Notes: generated from the letters alone by a model not told the origin. DNA of 26,128 nt from a virus (IMGVR_UViG_3300029448_009013:1-26128); one strand, 5' to 3'. Positions 1-16,284 are shown, counted from the first letter of the stretch. A program made the numbers and translations.

Positions 1-42
1 AGAAGTGGTGGTTAGTGCATAATTGGTAAATATGGGTATAAA

Positions 43-1887
43 ATGAAGAAGTTCATACATTACACACTGATAGCAATAATGTTCAACTGGAACATGGCGG
101 TCTTCGCGGAAGGGGACCAAGGCTGTGAATGGAAGACGTTCGAAGAGACCGACACCTATGTGATGGAGAACTGTGTCAAGGAAGATGGCAGTTACTCCGC
201 ACGTGTGAGGCAGAAACCAGTAGAAGGACTGAACATAATAGTTGTTGAGTCACCTGAGAAGAAGAAAGAGAATCCCATAAAGAAATTCAAGGACAAGGTC
301 GAGGAGGCTCCCAAGGCCACTGCCAAGGTAGAGAAACTGGAGAAGATAGAGCAGGAAGTAATAGTCACAGAGAAGAAAGTAAAAGAATTGAAGGAAGAGA
401 AGGAAAAGGTCATACTACCTTTGCCTAAACCAAAGATAGAAAAAGATGTTGCTGAAAAAGTAGAAGAGAAAGTTGAGAAAGCAATCGAAGAGAAGAAACT
501 GGCAGAGACGCCTGTTGAGGAAACAGAGAAACCCATCATAAAAGAAGAGATTGCCAAGATAGAGGAAGAGAAGAAGTCCGACGAGAAACTGGTGGAACAG
601 GCCACAGAAAAAGAATGGGCAGATGTTGACGCAGAACAGAAAATAAGTTGGATGCAGTTCCATGAACTGCTACCTAGATTGATTGTTGAGAATGAAAAGA
701 TCAAAGCGGCTGAACTGGACTACGAAGCGGCTGTTGAATCGCTCAAATCAGAATACACAGCATACTACCCACAGGTGACTATATCAGTTGGCAACAACTG
801 GGAGGATGACAGGACACCTGCAAAGGGAACATATCCCAACAACACAATCACACATGACTCCAAACAGGGAATACAAAAAAGTATCACGATCACACAGATG
901 ATATGGGACGCAGGCAGAACCACTGCCATGATAGACAAGGCCAAAGCGACGGCACAGCAGGCACACTACAGACTGGAACTTGTGAAAGAAGATGTTGTCA
1001 TAGAGGCCATCAACGCATGGTTGAATCTACAGAAGGCATACAACACACATGAAGCCAACAAGAAAGTAGAAGCCAACGCAAAGATCACACTGGCAATGAC
1101 AATAGAGAAAGTCAAAAAGGGTGAAGGTTCTAAACTGGAACAACTACAAATCGAACAGCAATACAGAACTTACCAAACACTGTCAATGACCAGCAGACTA
1201 GGTCTCGACAGTGCAATACAGAGATTCCAGAATGTGTGGAGATGGAAACCACACAACATCGCAGAGATGCCTGCACCTTTGTCGGATGCTTTGGGCATTA
1301 TCCCTTTACAGGGCACTCCTGTGTCTAACAACACATCATTAAGGATAGCCAGCATGGACATCACCATCGCCAGAGAACAACTTAACTTTGACCGTGCGGA
1401 GTTCAAACCAAGGATAGACGGAAAACTTTCTTACACAGAGAAGGACGGAGAACTGGCAGGTGGTTATGATACAAGCGACTCACAGAAAGAAGAGTACCGG
1501 GCAGACATAACAATGACATGGAAACTGTTCAACTTCAAGAACAAACATATGACCAACGCAGACCAGTCTAGATTGAATGCGGCAAACTTCAGATATCAAG
1601 ACACATTGAGAAGTATACAGGAACAGTTCGACAACGCATGGAACAACTATGTGTTGGTCGAGAAGAATCTAGAGACACTGAAACGTACGGTTGAAATCAA
1701 CGATGAGATGTACAAACTCACACTGGCGGACTTCCAGGCAGGTAACTCACCCATAATGGCAGTGTTCGGCATGAAGACAGCACACCTGATGAGCGAGGTT
1801 GCTTACCAGAACGCACAGATTGATCTGCAGATTGCAAGATATCAACTGCACAAGGTACTGGGCCTAGTAGATCCTATACTCCAGTAA
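43..1887 (+). CDS. TolC-family outer-membrane efflux protein with a long Lys/Glu-rich N-terminal extension
   Basis: The 614-residue product starts with a signal peptide (about residues 1-22, ending AVFAEG). A short segment with two cysteines follows, then about 125 residues very rich in Lys and Glu (roughly 72-200), predicted to be helical or coiled coil. From about residue 205 it resembles the TolC/OEP fold: a helical repeat, a YYPQVTISVG strand start, WDAGRTTAMIDKAKATA, and a second repeat with FKPRIDGKLSYTEKDG and LADFQAGNSPIMAVF. TolC proteins form trimeric outer-membrane and periplasmic channels for type I secretion and efflux. The permease and HlyD genes follow directly, supporting that role. 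The charged extension is not part of ordinary TolC and would lie in the periplasm. No clear Shine-Dalgarno site precedes this start; an ATG at 31 runs into a stop at once. Confidence 0.85.
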   Translation: MKKFIHYTLIAIMFNWNMAVFAEGDQGCEWKTFEETDTYVMENCVKEDGSYSARVRQKPVEGLNIIVVESPEKKKENPIKKFKDKVEEAPKATAKVEKLEKIEQEVIVTEKKVKELKEEKEKVILPLPKPKIEKDVAEKVEEKVEKAIEEKKLAETPVEETEKPIIKEEIAKIEEEKKSDEKLVEQATEKEWADVDAEQKISWMQFHELLPRLIVENEKIKAAELDYEAAVESLKSEYTAYYPQVTISVGNNWEDDRTPAKGTYPNNTITHDSKQGIQKSITITQMIWDAGRTTAMIDKAKATAQQAHYRLELVKEDVVIEAINAWLNLQKAYNTHEANKKVEANAKITLAMTIEKVKKGEGSKLEQLQIEQQYRTYQTLSMTSRLGLDSAIQRFQNVWRWKPHNIAEMPAPLSDALGIIPLQGTPVSNNTSLRIASMDITIAREQLNFDRAEFKPRIDGKLSYTEKDGELAGGYDTSDSQKEEYRADITMTWKLFNFKNKHMTNADQSRLNAANFRYQDTLRSIQEQFDNAWNNYVLVEKNLETLKRTVEINDEMYKLTLADFQAGNSPIMAVFGMKTAHLMSEVAYQNAQIDLQIARYQLHKVLGLVDPILQ

Positions 1888-1895
1888 TAAAATTC

Positions 1896-1903
1896 ATTAA
1901 ATA
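1896..1903 (+). promoter_or_regulatory. T4-late-like promoter box ATTAAATA
   Basis: ATTAAATA resembles the T4 late consensus TATAAATA. It sits in the 24-base gap after the TolC gene, 8 bases before the ATG at 1912. T4 late boxes lie about 6 bases before the transcription start, so the mRNA would begin at or next to the ATG. No Shine-Dalgarno site is visible. In AT-rich DNA one such box is weak evidence, but the same spacing recurs at 5395. Confidence 0.45.
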
Positions 1904-1911
1904 CATACATA

Positions 1912-2667
1912 ATGAAAAGTCTTATTCGACATCTGTCCAAAGAACCTGGAACTGCATCCATGCTGTTGATCAGCAGTTTGATCATTGGTATTTGTGCATT
2001 GGCACCTGCATTATTTGTTATAATAGTTCTAAACAAGTATCTGGCATCGGGCATCACAGCAACATTGATTAGCCTATCCATAGGAGCAGTGTTGGCCATT
2101 GCATTTGAATTCACTTTTAGGCAGAACAGAGGTTCTATGATGTCTGCGTTCAACCAACGTGTGTATGATCCTTTGCTACAAAAGTTCGTAGAAAAATTTA
2201 GAACAGCAGGACAACTCACAGCACAGCAGTATAAAAAGTTAGATGGTGCAGGCACAATGATAAAGAATATGAGAACATCTTCAACCACAAGTTGGATACT
2301 CGACTGGCCCTTTGTGTTGATGTTTTTGATTGTGTTGCTGTACATAAATTGGGCGGCTTCAATTATCACTGCCATATTCATGTTGATAATGTATTTTTTA
2401 ATCACTTGGAAACGCAACGTTTCCATGTCACAGGAAACACAGGGCAACATAGAAATATTTTTAAACGGATTACAGACGATAGTAATAATGGCAGTTGGTG
2501 CCATAATGATCATAGCAGGCACACTGGACATAGGATTGCTGATTGGTTCTAACATACTGGCGGCAAGAGCATTACAAGGAACCAGCAAGTATGCCAAGGC
2601 AAACGAATTTTTAAAACAACGTGATCAAGCAGTAGGGGAAATAATAAATTATGTCAAAGGCAAGTAA
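1912..2667 (+). CDS. ABC-exporter transmembrane domain (type I secretion permease-like) lacking the ATPase domain
   Basis: The 251-residue protein has about five hydrophobic helices (near residues 16-40, 50-68, 128-145, 147-166, 185-204). It carries landmarks of the membrane half of PrtD/LapB-like type I secretion exporters: SLIIGICALAPALFVIIVLN near the start, a DWPF segment before the third helix, and IGLLIGSNILAARALQG near the end. A full exporter is about 550-720 residues, with a nucleotide-binding domain after the membrane domain. Here the gene stops after the last helices, and there is no Walker A, LSGGQ or Walker B motif here or in the next ORFs. It overlaps the HlyD gene by 17 bases. 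Either an ATPase is encoded elsewhere, the protein pairs with a host exporter, or it is repurposed. The membrane-domain call is fairly secure; transport activity is not. Confidence 0.72.
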   Translation: MKSLIRHLSKEPGTASMLLISSLIIGICALAPALFVIIVLNKYLASGITATLISLSIGAVLAIAFEFTFRQNRGSMMSAFNQRVYDPLLQKFVEKFRTAGQLTAQQYKKLDGAGTMIKNMRTSSTTSWILDWPFVLMFLIVLLYINWAASIITAIFMLIMYFLITWKRNVSMSQETQGNIEIFLNGLQTIVIMAVGAIMIIAGTLDIGLLIGSNILAARALQGTSKYAKANEFLKQRDQAVGEIINYVKGK

Positions 2668-3352
2668 CAGATTCTTTTTTGCAATCACAACTTTGTTTGT
2701 GATGTTCTTTGTGTGGATGACGTTTGCTAAGGTAGATGTTACCACGGTGGCAAACGGACTTATTGTTCCTGAGAGAAATATTACTAAACTGGGCACAATG
2801 GTCACTGGTGAGATCGTTGCAGTGAATTACAAGCAGGGAGACACAGTCAAAAAAGGTGACATAATAATAACAATCAATCCAGGTGTGGGTTATGAACCAT
2901 ACCACATAAGGGCAAACATTGATGGCAGGATACAAAACCTCACTTTTAAAAATCCAGGTTCGGTTGTGAAACAGGGCGATGCACTGGCGATACTTGTTCC
3001 ACTGGATCAGAAATTGATTGTGATAGGACAACTACAGGTCAAGGACAGAGGATACATCGAAGTCGGGCAGTCAGCAAAAATTAAGTTGGCCAGCATGGAG
3101 CAACTCACATATCAGCCAATCGTTGCAAAACTTGTTTCAATATCACCAGATGCTGTACAAACTGACATGATGAGTTATTACGAACTGGAACTTGAACTAG
3201 ATTCGCAAACATTTGTAAATGGTGATATGCAGTACAAACTAGTACCAGGTGTGCAGGTACACATTTTTATACTAACAGGTGAGAGGACTGTGTTGAGTTA
3301 CATCACGACACCTTTCCACAACGGAATAGGCATGGCACTACAGGAGAGATAA
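2651..3352 (+). CDS. Short HlyD-family periplasmic adaptor without the coiled-coil hairpin
   Basis: The 233-residue protein has one N-terminal membrane helix (about 8-26), a lipoyl-like half (TVANGLIVPERNITKLG, GEIVAVNYKQGDTVKKGD), then directly the second half (RANIDGRIQNL, VVKQGDALAILVP). A beta-barrel domain follows, with the typical HlyD ending TGERTVLSYITTPF. Type I secretion HlyD proteins usually run about 390-480 residues, because a long helical hairpin that docks to TolC separates the two lipoyl halves. Here only about ten residues separate them. The start overlaps the permease gene; AGGGG lies about 13 bases upstream, farther than usual. It probably sits in the inner membrane with its bulk in the periplasm, as a partner of the two upstream products. 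Confidence 0.82.
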   Translation: MSKASNRFFFAITTLFVMFFVWMTFAKVDVTTVANGLIVPERNITKLGTMVTGEIVAVNYKQGDTVKKGDIIITINPGVGYEPYHIRANIDGRIQNLTFKNPGSVVKQGDALAILVPLDQKLIVIGQLQVKDRGYIEVGQSAKIKLASMEQLTYQPIVAKLVSISPDAVQTDMMSYYELELELDSQTFVNGDMQYKLVPGVQVHIFILTGERTVLSYITTPFHNGIGMALQER

Positions 3353-3477
3353 TGTTGAGTTGGTTTTTGATAGGCATATTGGTTGGACTATGTATAAGGT
3401 GCACAGTGCGACCACACAAATCTGTTGAAGACAAATTCAAAGATCCATGGAACTGGACAGGATTCGGAGGCGGATGA
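3352..3477 (+). CDS. 41-residue membrane protein of unknown function
   Basis: This small ORF has a strong Shine-Dalgarno site (AGGAGA, 3342-3347) and starts inside the HlyD stop codon (TAATG). The product begins MLSWFLIGILVGLCI, a single hydrophobic helix, then a basic segment with Arg/Lys, and ends in WNWTGFGGG. Its stop codon overlaps the cyclase start as ATGA, so HlyD, this gene and the cyclase look translationally coupled. I recognise no family. It could be a small accessory subunit of the envelope complex or a regulator of the cyclase. Confidence 0.65.
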   Translation: MLSWFLIGILVGLCIRCTVRPHKSVEDKFKDPWNWTGFGGG

Positions 3478-5399
3478 GAATATTAACAAGTATATGGATG
3501 GTTATAGTATTCGCTGTTGTGTTGTTGGGTGTAAGGATAGACAACAACGACAGTGTTAAAACTTTAAGATACAAAACCTGGGACCATTTCCAAAAAATGC
3601 AACCAAGAAGCACGGTAAGTGATTCGGTGACTGTAATCAATATCACCGAACAGGATCTTGAACTTTATGGACAGTGGCCTTGGCCCAGGCACGTGATGGC
3701 CATGCTACACGCCAAGATAGCAGATGCAGGTGCCTTGCTTGTGAACTACAATATACTGTTCGCAGAACCAGATAGAATGAGTGGCGTTGAATATTTGAAG
3801 TCAATGCCCATGACCAACGAACTACGTGAACAACTGGGGCAGGTGTTATTGGACACCGATGCTGTATTCTCCATGGTGTTGAAAGAATCAAAAAGAGCGG
3901 TGCTAATGATGAGTGTGAAGAATTCATCCGACACAAATCTGCCCAGCACCACAAAGATAATTGAAAAAGGAAATGTTAAACCTTGGTTATACGAGTACAG
4001 TGGCATAGTGGCACCCCACTCCAAAGTATCCGCGGGTGCAACAGGCATGGGAGTTAATGTGACATCTCCAGAACCAGATGCTGTTGTGAGGAAGATGCCT
4101 GTGCTGATACGTATAAATGGAAAAATTTATCCTAGCATGATTTTAGAAAATATTAGACTGCTGAACGGATCAAAAAGGATCAAAGTCGTAGCAAAGCAAC
4201 ATGGCATAGATGAAGTGCTTGTGAGCAAGAAAGCAGGCATACCAGTGAATCATAATGCAGAAATGTATATCAACTATGCTGATCCTGAGATGTACGTGAA
4301 TATGTCAGCCACAGACATCCTCACAGACAACTTTAATGAGAACAAGATAAAAGACAGGATAGTAATTGTGGGCTTGGACGCCGCGGGATTGAGTGTTTTG
4401 AAGTACACCCCGCATGGACTTACCACAGACCAAAACATATCTGCCCAAGCATTGGATACATTGTTAACAGGCAAACATTTGTTGCGTACACCACAAGCAG
4501 ACACCTATGAAATTGTGTTCCTGGCATTGTTATTATTGCTTTTAATATTAGTAGTACCTAGAACTAGTGTGTTGTTGGCTGTGCCTTTGTTATTGTTTGT
4601 TGAAGTGGGTGTTGCCTACGGAGCATTCATGGCATACACAAACAAAGGATTTCTTGTGGATCCATCTTGGATAATGTTGTCTGTGTTTTTAATTTGGTCT
4701 CATTCTGTGTACAACAACTTTGCCACACAAAGCAGACTGAGACAGCAAATCAAAAAACAATTTGAACACTATCTTGATCCTGGCATGGTGAAGAAATTAC
4801 AGAAAGATCCATCATTATTAAAACTAGGTGGTGAGACAAGGAACATGACTTTCTTGTTCTGTGACATCAGAGGATTCACACCTATCAGCGAGAAGTACAA
4901 GGGCAATCCTGCAGGACTAACCAAACTTATCAATAGATTTTTAACACGTATGACAGATGTCATAATTGCCAATGGTGGAACAATAGACAAGTTCATGGGT
5001 GACTGTATCATGGCATTCTGGAATGCACCTATAGAAAACAAAAAGCACAGGCAGATGGCAGTCAAGAGTGCTATGGAAATGACAGTTGCACTGGCAGAAT
5101 TGAACACGCACCTTCAAGCAGAAGGACTTCCACAGATCAACATAGGAATAGGAATCAACACAGGTGACGCATTGGTTGGCAACATGGGATCAGAACAGAG
5201 ATTTGATTACTCCGTGATTGGTGACGCAGTTAACCTAGCAAGTAGATTGGAAAGTTCAAGTAAAACACTGGGCAAGACCATAGTGATAGGTGAGGGCACA
5301 AAGCACACAATCGACACAGACTATCCATTTGAATACATTGACAGCATCACAGTCAAAGGTAAAACTGAAGAAATTAAAGTGTATACAATTAAAGATTAA
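3474..5399 (+). CDS. CHASE2-domain class III adenylate/guanylate cyclase, membrane bound
   Basis: I place the start at the ATG at 3474, not 3447, because GGAGG at 3466-3470 precedes it and it overlaps the previous stop as ATGA. The 641-residue protein has an N-terminal helix (about 6-21), a CHASE2 sensor domain (TVINITEQDLELYGQWPWPR, NILFAEPD) and about three membrane helices near 345-420. A class III cyclase domain occupies the C-terminus. Catalytic residues are present: metal-binding D464 (FCDIRGFT) and D510 (DKFMGD), purine-contacting K506, and transition-state N587 and R591 (VNLASR). The Lys suggests ATP rather than GTP as substrate, so cAMP is the likely product. CHASE2 is an extracytoplasmic sensing domain. 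Nothing looks truncated. It is the last gene of the envelope operon. Confidence 0.92.
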   Translation: MRILTSIWMVIVFAVVLLGVRIDNNDSVKTLRYKTWDHFQKMQPRSTVSDSVTVINITEQDLELYGQWPWPRHVMAMLHAKIADAGALLVNYNILFAEPDRMSGVEYLKSMPMTNELREQLGQVLLDTDAVFSMVLKESKRAVLMMSVKNSSDTNLPSTTKIIEKGNVKPWLYEYSGIVAPHSKVSAGATGMGVNVTSPEPDAVVRKMPVLIRINGKIYPSMILENIRLLNGSKRIKVVAKQHGIDEVLVSKKAGIPVNHNAEMYINYADPEMYVNMSATDILTDNFNENKIKDRIVIVGLDAAGLSVLKYTPHGLTTDQNISAQALDTLLTGKHLLRTPQADTYEIVFLALLLLLLILVVPRTSVLLAVPLLLFVEVGVAYGAFMAYTNKGFLVDPSWIMLSVFLIWSHSVYNNFATQSRLRQQIKKQFEHYLDPGMVKKLQKDPSLLKLGGETRNMTFLFCDIRGFTPISEKYKGNPAGLTKLINRFLTRMTDVIIANGGTIDKFMGDCIMAFWNAPIENKKHRQMAVKSAMEMTVALAELNTHLQAEGLPQINIGIGINTGDALVGNMGSEQRFDYSVIGDAVNLASRLESSSKTLGKTIVIGEGTKHTIDTDYPFEYIDSITVKGKTEEIKVYTIKD

Positions 5400-5410: not shown

Positions 5411-5689
5411 ATGAATTTTTGGACACTAGTTGCAGAGTTAGGATTACCAATAGCGGCCACGGCCGGTATGGGTGTGTTCATACTGTTCATTATAAAATAT
5501 ATTCTAAATGGCATCGTTAGTTCTATCAAGTTTATTGAAACTGTGATTACACAATTAGACAACAGGGTTAAAACAATGAACAACGACATCATAAAAATAG
5601 ATCAAGAAGTTTCCGAGCAACTGGGCATACCCATAGACACTGACAGGGTGGCACGTGCTGACGGAAAAAAAGATGCGAGGAAAGACTGA
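5411..5689 (+). CDS. Small one-helix membrane protein, holin-like (copy 1)
   Basis: The 92-residue protein has one N-terminal membrane helix (about 10-32, ELGLPIAATAGMGVFILFII), then an amphipathic, coiled-coil-prone segment (FIETVITQLDNRVKTMNNDI) and a charged tail (DGKKDARKD). This plan, with a short periplasmic start containing Gly-x-Pro, one helix and a charged coil, is seen in YvrJ/BhlA-type phage holin-like proteins. The next gene encodes a shorter relative. Its stop overlaps that gene's start (TGATG). A role as holin or other membrane-disrupting lysis factor is inference from the plan. The late-type promoter box fits a lysis-stage gene. Confidence 0.68.
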   Translation: MNFWTLVAELGLPIAATAGMGVFILFIIKYILNGIVSSIKFIETVITQLDNRVKTMNNDIIKIDQEVSEQLGIPIDTDRVARADGKKDARKD

Positions 5690-5919
5690 TGGACCTAGTC
5701 ACAATGATAAATGATTACGGGTTTCCCACAGTGGCAGTTTTCTTCCTTGCCTACTTCATATATTTCCTTTGGAAATTTATCACCAGAGAGATCACACCGA
5801 AACTGGGTTCAACTTCAAAGACATTGATTGCTCTCATAGACAGAGTACGTATGTTGGACAACGACCTTATAAGGTTGAGAACTAAAGTGCGTACTTTCCG
5901 ACAGCAAGACCGCAAGTAA
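5689..5919 (+). CDS. Small one-helix membrane protein, holin-like (copy 2)
   Basis: The 76-residue protein is laid out like the preceding one: a YGFPTVAVFFLAYFIYFLWK helix (about 10-30), then a helical segment ALIDRVRMLDNDLIRLRTKV that aligns with TQLDNRVKTMNNDIIKIDQ of its neighbour. YGFP before the helix is typical of YvrJ-like holin-related proteins. It starts inside the stop codon of the upstream gene, so translation is probably coupled. The pair may form a mixed oligomer or a holin/regulator pair, but that is not shown by the sequence. No endolysin gene is adjacent. Confidence 0.7.
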   Translation: MDLVTMINDYGFPTVAVFFLAYFIYFLWKFITREITPKLGSTSKTLIALIDRVRMLDNDLIRLRTKVRTFRQQDRK

Positions 5920-8910: not shown

Positions 8911-9969
8911 ATGACAGTAGCATCGGTTCGTAATAGCAAACTTAAACTTTGGTATTCTCCTGTTCCACTGTCCCTAGCATTCGAGCCCATTAACCTCTGT
9001 AACGCAAGATGTTTCTGTTGCCCCTACACAGAATTTGCGGATGATAAAAGTTTCATAAAACAAAAGATGTCGGCGGAACAGATCACCACAATGATAGAAG
9101 ATTGGGTGGCACAACTTGACAAATACAAAGTAAAGCACAAAAACGCCGCAATACTGCCATGGAGATACTCCGATCCCTTGGTCAATCCTAATCTAGACAC
9201 AGTGCTGGAATTGGCAGACAAGCATGGATTAAGAGTCGGGCTCACAACCAATGCAATATCATTCAAAAAAAGGCAGTGTGATCTCCTACAAAAATACATA
9301 CACACCTTAGAAAAAATATTCGTGTCAGTGATAGGTTTCACAGAAGAGGCAGTGCAAGAGCAGATGGGAATCAGCAAGAAAAACACTCTGCACAGTTTGG
9401 ACTTCCTCAAGGAGAACTATCCAGACATATCCAGACTGCTAGACGTACAAATCAAAGACAAAAAGAACATGTTGCCAGATCAAAGTATTGTTGAAGAATA
9501 CCAAGCAAGGATAATTGCTCCAGGCAAAGCAAGGGGACAGGCCAACTGGATCAGCAATAGGTTAGGCAAGGGGGATGACGTATGGGTCAAAAAAGTTAAA
9601 TGGAAGCCCAGCAAATGGTCGTACGTGAATGGATGTATGTTGACACCTGGTAAAATTTTGAATCGACTGGAAGTAATGGTAAGCGGCAGGGCGGCATTGT
9701 GTTGTGATATGTCATACGATGTAAATTTTCCAAAAGAAAAAGTTGATTATGGAAATGTTTTTGAAATAGGGGTGGCGGGTGTGTGGGCCAATCTCACACG
9801 AGAACACCAACGTATCTATGATCAAAAATTTTCAGATGGTAAAATGAATCTTCTCTGTAACAACTGTAACAGGGCCGGGGTCACAAACTTTGGCTTTGAC
9901 TTTCAAAAAACAGTCAATAAGCAGAGAAAGATCAGCACCAAATTCTTCCCTGATTATATAGGCCAATAA
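8911..9969 (+). CDS. Radical SAM protein with Cys-rich C-terminal domain (copy 1)
   Basis: The 352-residue protein has the radical SAM cluster motif C30-x3-C34-x2-C37 (NLCNARCFCCPY) right after an AFEPINLC strand. A TIM-barrel-like region follows, with WRYSDPLVNPNLDTVLELAD and LRVGLTTNAISF. The C-terminal part holds C242, C264/C265, C316 and C319, spaced like a SPASM or half-SPASM auxiliary-cluster domain. Such enzymes cleave S-adenosylmethionine to make radicals, often for peptide or protein side-chain changes. The substrate is unknown. A second radical SAM gene lies at 14505 and an A-type Fe-S carrier at 15931, consistent with a need for cluster supply. No Shine-Dalgarno site is evident. 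Confidence 0.88.
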   Translation: MTVASVRNSKLKLWYSPVPLSLAFEPINLCNARCFCCPYTEFADDKSFIKQKMSAEQITTMIEDWVAQLDKYKVKHKNAAILPWRYSDPLVNPNLDTVLELADKHGLRVGLTTNAISFKKRQCDLLQKYIHTLEKIFVSVIGFTEEAVQEQMGISKKNTLHSLDFLKENYPDISRLLDVQIKDKKNMLPDQSIVEEYQARIIAPGKARGQANWISNRLGKGDDVWVKKVKWKPSKWSYVNGCMLTPGKILNRLEVMVSGRAALCCDMSYDVNFPKEKVDYGNVFEIGVAGVWANLTREHQRIYDQKFSDGKMNLLCNNCNRAGVTNFGFDFQKTVNKQRKISTKFFPDYIGQ

Positions 9970-11703: not shown

Positions 11704-11771
11704 TGAGAGGACTCAAAGACTTTCATCCCTCTATAAACACTCTGCAAGTCATCATTAAGGAGAAAAGATGA
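11703..11771 (+). CDS. 22-residue ORF linking two genes
   Basis: A short ORF (MRGLKDFHPSINTLQVIIKE, then KR) starts in the stop codon of the previous gene (TAATG) and ends by overlapping the start of the QueD-like gene (ATGA). Its last codons encode the strong AAGGAG ribosome-binding site of that gene, so passage of ribosomes could regulate it. It may be a leader peptide, a real micropeptide, or chance. A run of 22 codons is short enough that only conservation could settle it. Confidence 0.35.
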   Translation: MRGLKDFHPSINTLQVIIKEKR

Positions 11772-12217
11772 CTTACTACTCAACTAAAACATACGGACAT
11801 AACATAGGATTGGCCTGTGTGTTCCGACAACCCAACGCAGATCATTCACACTGCCATTTATTACACGGATACAGCCTTGCTTTCAAGTTCACATTTGGTT
11901 GCAATAACTTGGACAACAAAAATTGGGCCGTGGACTTTGGTGGCCTGAAGCCTTTAAAGGCCTGGCTCGAGGACAAGTTCGATCATAAAATGGCGCTTGA
12001 TATAAATGACCCTCAACTTGAAAAATTAAAGGAACTTGAAAAGCACGATCTTGCTGAAGTTAGGATCTTTGATGGAGTTGGCGCTGAGATGTTTGCCAAA
12101 CATGCATTTGATTTTGCAGACGAGTTGATCAAGGATAAAACAGATAGCAGATGTTTTGTGGAAAGTGTAGAGTGCATGGAACACGGAGCAAACAGTGCCA
12201 TCTACAGAAAAGATTAA
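11768..12217 (+). CDS. QueD/6-pyruvoyl-tetrahydropterin synthase-like protein (variant metal site)
   Basis: The 149-residue protein has the family layout: HCHLLHGYSLAFKFTF, WAVDFGGLKPLKAWLEDKFDHK, and EHGANSAIY near the end. Catalytic-type residues C29, D72-H73 and E138-H139 are recognisable. In classical QueD the zinc site uses an early His plus a HGH pair. Here the second motif is HGY and the early motif reads CVFRQ, so the metal ligands must be arranged differently (H26, H28, H30 and H33 are candidates). QueD makes 6-carboxytetrahydropterin on the path to 7-deazaguanines. No QueC, QueE or FolE is in this window. AAGGAG 5 bases before the ATG is among the strongest ribosome-binding sites here. 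Confidence 0.82.
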   Translation: MTYYSTKTYGHNIGLACVFRQPNADHSHCHLLHGYSLAFKFTFGCNNLDNKNWAVDFGGLKPLKAWLEDKFDHKMALDINDPQLEKLKELEKHDLAEVRIFDGVGAEMFAKHAFDFADELIKDKTDSRCFVESVECMEHGANSAIYRKD

Positions 12218-14005: not shown

Positions 14006-14515
14006 ATGAAAATAGGAATCACAGGAACCACTGCAGGAATAGGTGCAACACTAATAAAAATGCCTTATGAATTTGTGAAATTCGATAGGCATGATGGAGA
14101 CCTACAAGAACCAAGTTGTGTATATGAAAAATTAAAAGACTGTGACGTTTTTATCAACAACGCATGGGAGGGTGACTGCCAGATCAAACTTCTAACATAT
14201 TTTTTTGACAAATGGAGACACCAGCATAAAAAAATTATTTCAATAGGCAGTTCTGTTTGTTCATATCAACCATCCAGCAATGGTTATGGAGATTATGTGG
14301 ATTTGAAAAGACAACTTAGAACAGCACACTGTGATATTGTCAATCTTAAGACTACAAAATGCAAATCATATCTTGTGAATCCAGGTGTGACAGATACGAA
14401 ACTTGTGCAGTCAAGAGAGTGTAATAAAATGACCACCGATGATGTCACAAGCATTATTAAATTTGTATTGGAAAATAAATTATACATTCCGGAGATATAC
14501 TTTTATGTTGAATAG
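14006..14515 (+). CDS. Compact short-chain dehydrogenase/reductase (SDR)
   Basis: I start the gene at the ATG at 14006, one base after the upstream stop; an upstream TTG would overlap. The 169-residue product shows the classical SDR signature in order: G7-x3-G11-I-G13 (GITGTTAGIGATL), VFINNAW for the NNAG motif, catalytic Ser in SIGSSVCSY, YVDLK for YxxxK, and LVNPGVTDT. The usual SDR length is about 250 residues, so loops and the C-terminal part are trimmed. It probably reduces or epimerises a small molecule, perhaps a sugar nucleotide given the neighbouring glycosyltransferase. Its end overlaps the next gene by 11 bases. Confidence 0.78.
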   Translation: MKIGITGTTAGIGATLIKMPYEFVKFDRHDGDLQEPSCVYEKLKDCDVFINNAWEGDCQIKLLTYFFDKWRHQHKKIISIGSSVCSYQPSSNGYGDYVDLKRQLRTAHCDIVNLKTTKCKSYLVNPGVTDTKLVQSRECNKMTTDDVTSIIKFVLENKLYIPEIYFYVE

Positions 14516-15602
14516 ATATGGATGGCAGTTTTATCATTGGCACATAGAGCCAAGTTCCAAATGCAGTTTAAAATGTCCTAGATGTCCAAGGCAGGAGCAC
14601 CCTGATATTAGTTGGATGCAAAAAGAAATATCATTGACTGAATTTAAAAGGGTGTTTACCAAAGATATGTTGGATCAGGCACAGCGGTTCACCATGTGTG
14701 GTGACGTTGGAGACCCTATCTATGCCAAAGACTACATAGACATAATAGATTATATAAAATCTCACAATCCTGAAATACAAATATTCACAATCACAAACGG
14801 AAGTTATAAAACAGAAAAATGGTGGAAAAAATTTGCCGCTGTATCAAACAAACATGACACCATTAATTTCAGTGTAGATGGTTATGATCAAAAGTCAAAT
14901 GATCTATATCGTGTTAACAGTCATTGGGACAGTATCATGCATGGTATGAAAATATGTTCAAACGAAAGTGACATGTTTGTGAACTGGGCAACCATTGTAT
15001 TCAAATTCAACGAGACACATTTATTACAAATCAAAGGACTGGCAAAAGAACAAGGTTGTGACGCCCTGCAATTGACACATAGCACTAAATTTGGTTCTAA
15101 GTACGGTGACGCATATGGTGGGGAGTATGACCTTCTCGAACCTAGTGCAAAGTTTGTCAGCAAATCTCATAGATACGAAAGACACACGATAAACTTGTCC
15201 GGTAGGCGACCAATGCGTTTGCAATACATGAAAACAAACTTCAAAAAATTTAATGAAATCAAAAAACAATTCACCGGTGATGTTGTCCCGATGTGCTTAA
15301 TTGGTAATCGTGGATTGTACATGAATGCAGAAGGAACAATTTTTCCCTGCAGTTGGACAAGTTTTCCATACAAGAGCCTAGAACACAATGGCAAAACAAT
15401 AAACTGGGAGGACAGTTTTTTTGTTAAAAACAAACATCTAGTGAATGCCAAAGGAAACAGATCAATCGAAGAAATACTTAATGACGACATATGGCAGACG
15501 TTGTTTGATAGTTTTACCAACAATCCTTTTGTTGAGTGTTCACAAAAGTGTGGCAAAGAAGTGGTAGACAAAAAATACGGAGTAGGTTATTATACAAACT
15601 AA
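14505..15602 (+). CDS. Radical SAM protein with Cys-rich C-terminal domain (copy 2)
   Basis: I set the start at 14505 (MLNRYGWQFYHWHIEPSSKC at its start), preceded by GGAG at 14491, instead of an upstream reading inside the SDR gene. The 365-residue protein has C20-x3-C24-x2-C27 (KCSLKCPRCPRQ), an FTITNGSY strand and NFSVDGYD. SPASM-like cysteines follow at C264, C282 (TIFPCSW), C345 and C349. The layout matches the first radical SAM protein only in outline, so the two probably act on different substrates. SPASM proteins often modify peptides or transfer electrons through extra clusters. The substrate is unknown; no obvious small precursor peptide was identified beside it. The end overlaps the next gene (TAATG). 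Confidence 0.88.
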   Translation: MLNRYGWQFYHWHIEPSSKCSLKCPRCPRQEHPDISWMQKEISLTEFKRVFTKDMLDQAQRFTMCGDVGDPIYAKDYIDIIDYIKSHNPEIQIFTITNGSYKTEKWWKKFAAVSNKHDTINFSVDGYDQKSNDLYRVNSHWDSIMHGMKICSNESDMFVNWATIVFKFNETHLLQIKGLAKEQGCDALQLTHSTKFGSKYGDAYGGEYDLLEPSAKFVSKSHRYERHTINLSGRRPMRLQYMKTNFKKFNEIKKQFTGDVVPMCLIGNRGLYMNAEGTIFPCSWTSFPYKSLEHNGKTINWEDSFFVKNKHLVNAKGNRSIEEILNDDIWQTLFDSFTNNPFVECSQKCGKEVVDKKYGVGYYTN

Positions 15603-15919
15603 TGAATAAAAGTTTTGGAAAAGTGAAAGTAAAAAGAATCAAACCTCAACTGGACGAAATACCGGAAGATTGTGGTTACGATAAAAGATTCAAATACGAT
15701 ATTGATATGAATGCAAACGGCATTATGGGTGAATGTATAGAATGGTGCCAGGTTAATTGCAAAAGCAGATGGGGATGGTGGTTTGACGGACCGGTATCCG
15801 ACAATCCTTACCATCATAACTGGGAGGAACAGAATAGTTTTATGAGTTTTGAAAACAAAAGAGAAGCCATGGCATTTTTCTTAGCCGTTGGTTTGGCAAA
15901 CATGGGACACAAACATTGA
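15602..15919 (+). CDS. Small hypothetical protein, Trp/Cys-rich centre
   Basis: The 105-residue protein starts in the stop codon of the radical SAM gene (an upstream reading from 15536 would overlap it). Its centre is unusual: CIEWCQVNCKSRWGWWFDGP, followed by HHNWEEQNSFMSFENKREAM and a hydrophobic helix AFFLAVGLANMG. Three close cysteines and several tryptophans could bind metal or form a small domain. I recognise no named family. Its coupling to the radical SAM gene and the Cys/Trp-rich core make it worth testing as a substrate or partner. Confidence 0.65.
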   Translation: MNKSFGKVKVKRIKPQLDEIPEDCGYDKRFKYDIDMNANGIMGECIEWCQVNCKSRWGWWFDGPVSDNPYHHNWEEQNSFMSFENKREAMAFFLAVGLANMGHKH

Positions 15920-15930
15920 TAATTAATAGT

Positions 15931-16284
15931 ATGGAAGGTTACGAAAATCACAAATGGTTTGAGATCACTGATGAAGCAAAAAATCAGATGGAGAAACTGC
16001 TATCGAAGAATCCAGAAAAATATGCTGTCAGCCTTGAAGTACAAGGTGGTGGCTGTGCAGGTTTCAAATACGAATGGGGATTTGCAGACACCAAGGAATC
16101 CATAGGCAAAGATGATCATGTGGAAGATTGGAAGACAGGCCGTTTTGTTGTTGACGAATCATCAATGCTGTATGTTGCAGGCACCAAAATTGATTGGAAA
16201 GAAGAAGTATTTGGTTCGCAGTTTGAAATAATCAATCCAAATGCACAGTCAGGTTGTGGTTGCGGTGAATCATTCAGCATGTAA
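15931..16284 (+). CDS. A-type iron-sulfur carrier (IscA/HesB-like)
   Basis: The 117-residue protein has the full A-type carrier signature: C42 in GGGCAGF and C109-G-C111 in SGCGCGESF. The start is the ATG at 15931; an upstream TTG at 15916 overlaps the previous stop. GATAAT at 15918-15923 lies 7 bases before the ATG but lacks a good -35. IscA/HesB proteins carry Fe-S clusters to client enzymes, and homologues are frequent in marine myophages. Here the two radical SAM proteins with auxiliary-cluster cysteines are natural local clients. The segment GKDDHVEDWKTG between the motifs is slightly long. Its stop overlaps the next ATG (TAATG). Confidence 0.92.
   Translation: MEGYENHKWFEITDEAKNQMEKLLSKNPEKYAVSLEVQGGGCAGFKYEWGFADTKESIGKDDHVEDWKTGRFVVDESSMLYVAGTKIDWKEEVFGSQFEIINPNAQSGCGCGESFSM

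Follow-up and report, generated by a model that had tools for sequence, protein, structure and literature searches.

We propose, at a probability of about 0.6, that the genes described here, which are found in a group of large marine phages, form a phage-encoded module for the display of a surface adhesin, reduced from an alphaproteobacterial type I operon of the LapA/LapB type. This way of redecorating the surface of infected cells appears not to have been described before, and no relevant report on phage-encoded type I secretion was found in the open-access literature.

The window, i.e. the whole stretch of DNA analysed (26,128 nucleotides), comprises bases 1-26128 of a virus record of 26,466 bases in IMG/VR. 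Tail-fibre- and baseplate-connector-like genes (from 17306) and an exonuclease are found in it, which fits a phage origin. Further genes encode a radical SAM protein (8911-9969, Pfam), a PTPS/QueD-like protein (11768-12217, Pfam), a second radical-SAM-like protein (14439-15602, by eye) and an IscA/HesB-type Fe-S protein (15916-16284).

Gene array and its truncated components

The sequence-only reading had placed a TolC protein, a permease and an HlyD protein next to each other, and these were recovered as consecutive genes on the phage contig, at the positions listed in Table 1 together with the neighbouring features.

Table 1. Features at the start of the window, with positions counted from its first nucleotide.
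Feature	Position	Strand	Basis
C-terminal end (last 6 codons and stop, EVVVSA*) of giant FecR/cadherin surface protein	2..22	+	translation; gene otherwise upstream, off contig
TolC-family outer-membrane channel protein, 614 aa	43..1887	+	Pfam OEP (E=4e-52); TIGR01844, type I TolC (E=2e-31)
TolC N-terminal extension (residues ~23-195), a small beta domain with two Cys followed by a K/E/P-rich segment	109..627	+	absent in the cellular TolCs compared
Type I ABC transmembrane domain without NBD, 251 aa, also without ICL2	1912..2667	+	NCBIfam, profile and fold comparison
Mini-HlyD adaptor, 233 aa: membrane helix, directly joined lipoyl halves, C-terminal beta domain, no coiled-coil hairpin	2651..3352	+	TIGR01843 (E=4e-48)
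Putative small ORF, 41 aa, single hydrophobic stretch, between HlyD and cyclase	3353..3478	+	read off the sequence; not seen as conserved gene
CHASE2-class III adenylate cyclase, 650 aa	3447..5399	+	Pfam CHASE2 (3e-41), Guanylate_cyc (4e-23)
sm1: one apparent membrane helix and coiled-coil-like tail	5411..5689	+	phrog_18771
sm2: sm1 paralogue	5689..5919	+	same PHROG as sm1 (phrog_18771)

The permease gave no significant match in Pfam, and it matches the NCBIfam models of type I permease/ATPases in the membrane part only, the best being TIGR03375 (LssB, E=3e-19). Profile-profile comparison with eight cellular type I ABC proteins gave a probability of 99.7% (E=1e-25), and the solved structures nearest to an AlphaFold2 model of moderate confidence (pLDDT 69) were PrtD and HlyB. 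A profile search of the PDB with the permease found nothing, so the homology rests on the NCBIfam, profile-profile and fold comparisons. That the permease has no ATPase domain had been read from the single sequence and holds for all 22 phage permeases, which are 247-251 aa long and carry no Walker A motif. Beyond that reading, the permease has an internal gap of ~51 residues (profile comparison) or ~56 residues (split matches, whole genomes), and a stretch of ~55 residues is missing there from all 22. From the known fold of ABC exporters, we take the gapped stretch to be ICL2, the loop coupling to the nucleotide-binding domain (NBD). With both NBD and ICL2 lost, the usual ATP coupling is gone.

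Residues 76 and 85 of the mini-HlyD align to residues 128 and 329 of HlyD, meaning that 8 residues stand in place of ~200 and that the coiled-coil hairpin is gone, in agreement with the sequence-only reading; measured against cellular HlyDs the deletion amounts to ~183 residues. All of the 29 phage HlyDs, with stop-to-stop frames of at most 266 aa, are without the hairpin (~185 residues), one of them (L016) being a fragment cut by the contig end.

For TolC, an extra Lys/Glu-rich helical stretch of about 125 residues had been noted. A charged extension is indeed present, but it is larger, with ~170 residues between the signal peptide and the OEP core, and only partly helical in a low-confidence model, where a small Cys-containing beta domain and a 30-residue helix are followed by mostly unordered K/E/P-rich sequence. 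The phage TolCs have 127-196 residues ahead of the core with a K+E content of 31-40%, against 17-51 residues with at most 6% in the three readable cellular TolCs (the start of a fourth, L109, is uncertain). Judged by these sequences the extension is specific to phages among the TolCs compared, which makes it plausible that it compensates for the missing hairpin.

The true start of the cyclase is probably 3474, since homologues begin there, most of them aligning from about residue 10. With this start, the 41-aa ORF overlaps the cyclase by a few bases. In one relative (L012) a different ORF of 127 aa is found at the same place.

Conservation of the truncations and search for a motor

A sequencing break as the cause of the truncations was ruled out by the 22 permease and 29 HlyD homologues and by dN/dS values of 0.03-0.22, which place both genes under purifying selection. 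The same T1SS-derived truncated triple, proposed as something to look for in related phages, was found there and is conserved, and our scans found no ordinary full-length relatives of the permease or HlyD among phages. Named phages gave no match to TolC and permease, and only weak matches of HlyD to ordinary HlyD. No comparably truncated permease or HlyD was seen in 385 genomes of Alphaproteobacteria, the class to which the Rhodospirillaceae MAG G028 belongs. In this set the open frames of the type I ABC matches are 470-886 aa long, and HlyD open frames span 273-1000 aa among the matches listed, where the few below 400 aa may include contig-end cuts.

A separate ABC ATPase had been suggested as something to search for nearby, and none adjoins the array. 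PF00005 gave no match in the window's own contig, and in 24 related records the sole match over the cut-off lies at 8.1 kb of the relative G001; the relatives G018 (172 kb) and G019 (148 kb) have none. The match in G001 was rejected as a partner, as it is SufC (TIGR01978, E=4e-103) beside SufE, ~13 kb upstream of the FecR gene. In the 458 kb made up by the three longest relatives (G001, G018 and G019), SufC is thus the only ABC ATPase. The contigs of the relatives are probably partial genomes, and an ATPase elsewhere on the phage is therefore possible.

The relative G001 (137.6 kb) carries the whole array together with a phage clamp loader and a DNA polymerase, whose closest isolates are the jumbo phages Phosso, PA5oct and Atu_ph07 (46-51% identity across the 422 aa used as query). 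Structural genes of Pelagibacter phage HTVC008M were not detectable in the relatives of 137-172 kb. In G001, SufE, SufC and a TonB-dependent receptor (Plug domain) stand in a row (L034:7651-10436), and many further SPASM-like ORFs were seen by eye. Another phage contig (L027:1722-4429) has a class I/II aminotransferase, by eye 5-aminolevulinate synthase-like, close to a porphobilinogen deaminase (Pfam); this pair suggests synthesis of haem precursors and an alphaproteobacterial host.

The upstream giant protein and its cellular relatives

In the six relatives with complete upstream genes, a giant FecR-domain protein of 1005-1696 aa ends 13-22 nt before TolC. The C-termini EVVVST (L009), EVVVTA (L012) and EVVVSG (L135), each followed by the TolC gene 18-19 nt later, match the EVVVSA-stop in the first bases of the window. 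From these six codons, we infer that a FecR giant gene also stands directly upstream of the window's TolC. All six giants have the FecR domain and all except that of L012 have cadherin domains; the five counted have 0-1 Cys and a net charge of -170 to -288. Hydropathy analysis of three of them revealed neither a signal peptide nor a membrane helix. The central part of the giants is charged and resembles a coiled coil, and RTX repeats were found in L136 and L149, the latter with a serralysin-type C-terminus. A linked substrate with no N-terminal signal peptide, often with RTX repeats, is thus seen in the relatives, and is presumed for the window from the six codons.

Every pair of giants is 65-86% identical in the N-terminal region, whereas the C-terminal 400 aa are of two types with no detectable similarity between them. 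The giants of L135 and L136, for example, share 86% identity at the N-terminus, and their final 400 aa show no similarity that could be detected. By these alignments the giants appear to carry interchangeable tips, and the protein looks like a LapA-type adhesin of type I secretion. LapA is anchored via its N-terminal retention domain in its TolC-like subunit (PMC6890996), and the FecR domain occupies the position of the retention module. The retention_LapA profile gave a weak match to one cellular FecR giant (1.3e-5, below cut-off) and none to the phage protein. An HtrA-like trypsin/PDZ protease with an apparent signal peptide is encoded just upstream of the giant in L009 (L009:962-2023), and is a possible processing protease; it was not seen in L012 and L027.

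Loci near CHASE2 cyclases in alphaproteobacteria and others gave an HlyD match in 17 of 80 and FecR in ~28 of 80, by a hand count made with no background set. Clear cases are the operons TolC451-FecR1100-ABC564-HlyD426 (L280), TolC-FecR986-ABC566-HlyD443 (L279) and TolC443-ABC727-HlyD436-cyclase763 (L115), as well as the arrangement adhesin-like ORF-ABC551-HlyD417-cyclase753 (L058). Alphaproteobacteria thus have an operon of the same parts in which ABC protein and HlyD are full-length, and the cellular FecR giants carry RTX repeats. RTX repeats are typical of secreted proteins.

If the FecR giant were instead a virion protein, such as a fibre or tail component, TolC, the membrane domain and HlyD would aid assembly or act as envelope factors. 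Its gene is on a phage genome, its variable tips are as in receptor-binding proteins, and its coiled-coil region gives weak matches to PHROG tail proteins. These matches, however, fall in low-complexity coiled coil, and in cells the homologues that share the giant's N-terminal domain and bear RTX repeats belong to T1SS operons, leaving a virion protein very improbable.

The truncated membrane domain and HlyD could also join type I complexes of the host as dead subunits and block adhesin secretion, with the phage meanwhile installing its own TolC and FecR protein. Such a poison would account for proteins that have lost NBD and ICL2, yet keep the membrane helices and the HlyD C-terminal domain under purifying selection. 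Mixed complexes are conceivable given the trimer of dimers with six HlyD formed by HlyB/HlyD (PMC9751043), and full-length homologous systems are present in marine alphaproteobacteria. We nevertheless regard this explanation as unlikely: a poison needs no TolC of its own with a 170-residue extension, no giant substrate gene and no cyclase in the array, and an identity of mostly only ~25-40% between the phage proteins and their cellular counterparts makes mixed assembly doubtful.

The parallel curli module and the proposed function

Homologues of the cyclase are found in Pelagibacter phage HTVC008M and Methylophilales phage Melnitz, where the cyclase closes a CsgF-CsgG-CsgB-FecR-cyclase array. 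This curli/FecR/cyclase module of phages has already been described (PMC7029224, PMC9004378, PMC9599517). The genes sm1 and sm2, downstream of the cyclase in the window, stand just before csgF in both of these phages. Classed by neighbours, 84 phage loci (a few contigs represented twice) comprise 45 of curli type, 13 of T1 type, 2 of both and 24 of neither, the last being mostly cut contigs. In the two double loci (L217 and L219) the T1SS-derived and curli machines lie side by side; apart from these, no CsgF, CsgG or CsgB match was found in T1-type loci. In a further locus (L144) a T1-type cyclase adjoins csgF/csgG. In a midpoint-rooted tree, made by a quick method from members picked by similarity to the window cyclase, the phage cyclases group together in a single clade (support 100). 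One of its two branches (98) unites the T1-type cyclases with the second cyclases from the double loci, and the other (91) contains the curli-type cyclases. The T1-type module thus has the FecR protein, CHASE2 cyclase and sm1/sm2 of the curli module, and has neither CsgF/CsgG pore nor curlin repeats.

The adhesin display module that we propose would derive from an operon of FecR-RTX adhesin, TolC, ABC protein, HlyD and CHASE2 adenylate cyclase, later reduced. The giant FecR-cadherin(-RTX) protein would be put on the host surface via the phage TolC during infection, held by its N-terminal FecR/retention-like domain with the exchangeable tips outside. The membrane domain and the hairpin-less HlyD would form an inner-membrane docking platform, which the TolC extension would bridge to the outer membrane. 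In HlyB/HlyD, the N-terminal membrane helix of HlyD contacts the first permease helices (PMC11026475), and as both are kept here, an inner-membrane complex is plausible. The CHASE2 cyclase might sense the state of the envelope and make cAMP. As a result, infected cells would aggregate or rival phages would be excluded, effects that have been suggested for the curli module of pelagiphages.

Export may be powered by an ABC protein of the host, by a gene so far unseen, or by folding driven by calcium. That the energy comes in trans, with a type I ABC protein of the host as the most likely source, is the weakest step of the proposal and is put forward tentatively. Three dimers of HlyB/HlyD hydrolyse ATP and one is the channel (PMC9751043), so subunits without NBD could take up structural positions next to an ABC protein of the host. 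For RTX proteins, a ratchet based on calcium-driven folding is a published idea (Bumba 2016, as cited in PMC11026475), and it would suit seawater. A motor-free export through type-I-like parts can be drawn from this: the unfolded acidic RTX/cadherin chain would cross a passive inner-membrane channel and then TolC, pulled out by calcium-driven folding (seawater has ~10 mM Ca2+), with the TolC extension standing in for the HlyD hairpin; the adhesin-cyclase module would be the common frame in which phages exchange this export device and the curli pore. Taken as one joint reading, this has little probability.

Among the roles offered by the sequence-only reading, alteration of a host exporter and superinfection exclusion are possible, and a role in lysis is disfavoured by the context, i.e. 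the FecR/cadherin/RTX giant upstream, the full-length cellular operons and the parallel curli/FecR/cyclase module (PMC9599517). As a lysis device, the complex would bridge both membranes and time host lysis, as proposed for the CsgG pore of Melnitz. Pore proteins of the curli module have been proposed as lysis regulators (PMC9004378), and sm1 and sm2 are short, apparently single-helix membrane proteins of holin-like size. They match no holin family, however, and neither an adhesin with exchangeable tips (RTX in some phages) nor a CHASE2 cyclase is expected in a lysis cassette; we therefore hold this role to be improbable.

With adhesin display as the preferred function, marine phages would combine one FecR-cyclase core with either of at least two interchangeable envelope machines, the curli-type and the T1SS-derived one, so that remodelling of the infected-cell surface looks like a strategy to which phages have turned repeatedly. 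The conserved loss of ATPase, coupling loop and adaptor hairpin is a natural experiment on which type I parts are needed, and opens to test the question whether retained adhesins can reach the surface without an ABC motor.

Among the three parts of a type I secretion system, the TolC-family outer-membrane channel is present here, while an ABC exporter with NBD and a membrane fusion protein with a hairpin reaching TolC are absent. Since two defining features, motor and hairpin, are missing, the phage module is a T1SS-derived variant and not a T1SS. It shares with E. coli HlyB/HlyD/TolC the homologous membrane domain, the HlyD C-terminal domain and the OEP channel, but is without ATPase, C39-like domain and hairpin. 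With the pelagiphage type VIII (curli) module sm1-sm2-CsgF-CsgG-CsgA/B-FecR-adenylate cyclase (HTVC008M, Melnitz) it has in common the cyclase clade, a FecR-domain protein, sm1/sm2 and the overall logic of secreting a surface protein; TolC and truncated T1SS parts are used instead of CsgF/CsgG, and a giant FecR-cadherin substrate instead of curlin repeats. The LapA/LapEBC-type systems (Pseudomonas, Legionella LssB and the alphaproteobacterial FecR-TolC-ABC-HlyD operons) share the gene set in near-identical order: the phage permease matches the LssB-type TIGR03375, a TolC partner is present, and the substrate is giant, acidic and nearly Cys-free, with cadherin domains and in some phages RTX repeats. 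The phage version differs from them in being phage-borne, without NBD, ICL2 and HlyD hairpin, and in the long charged extension of its TolC.
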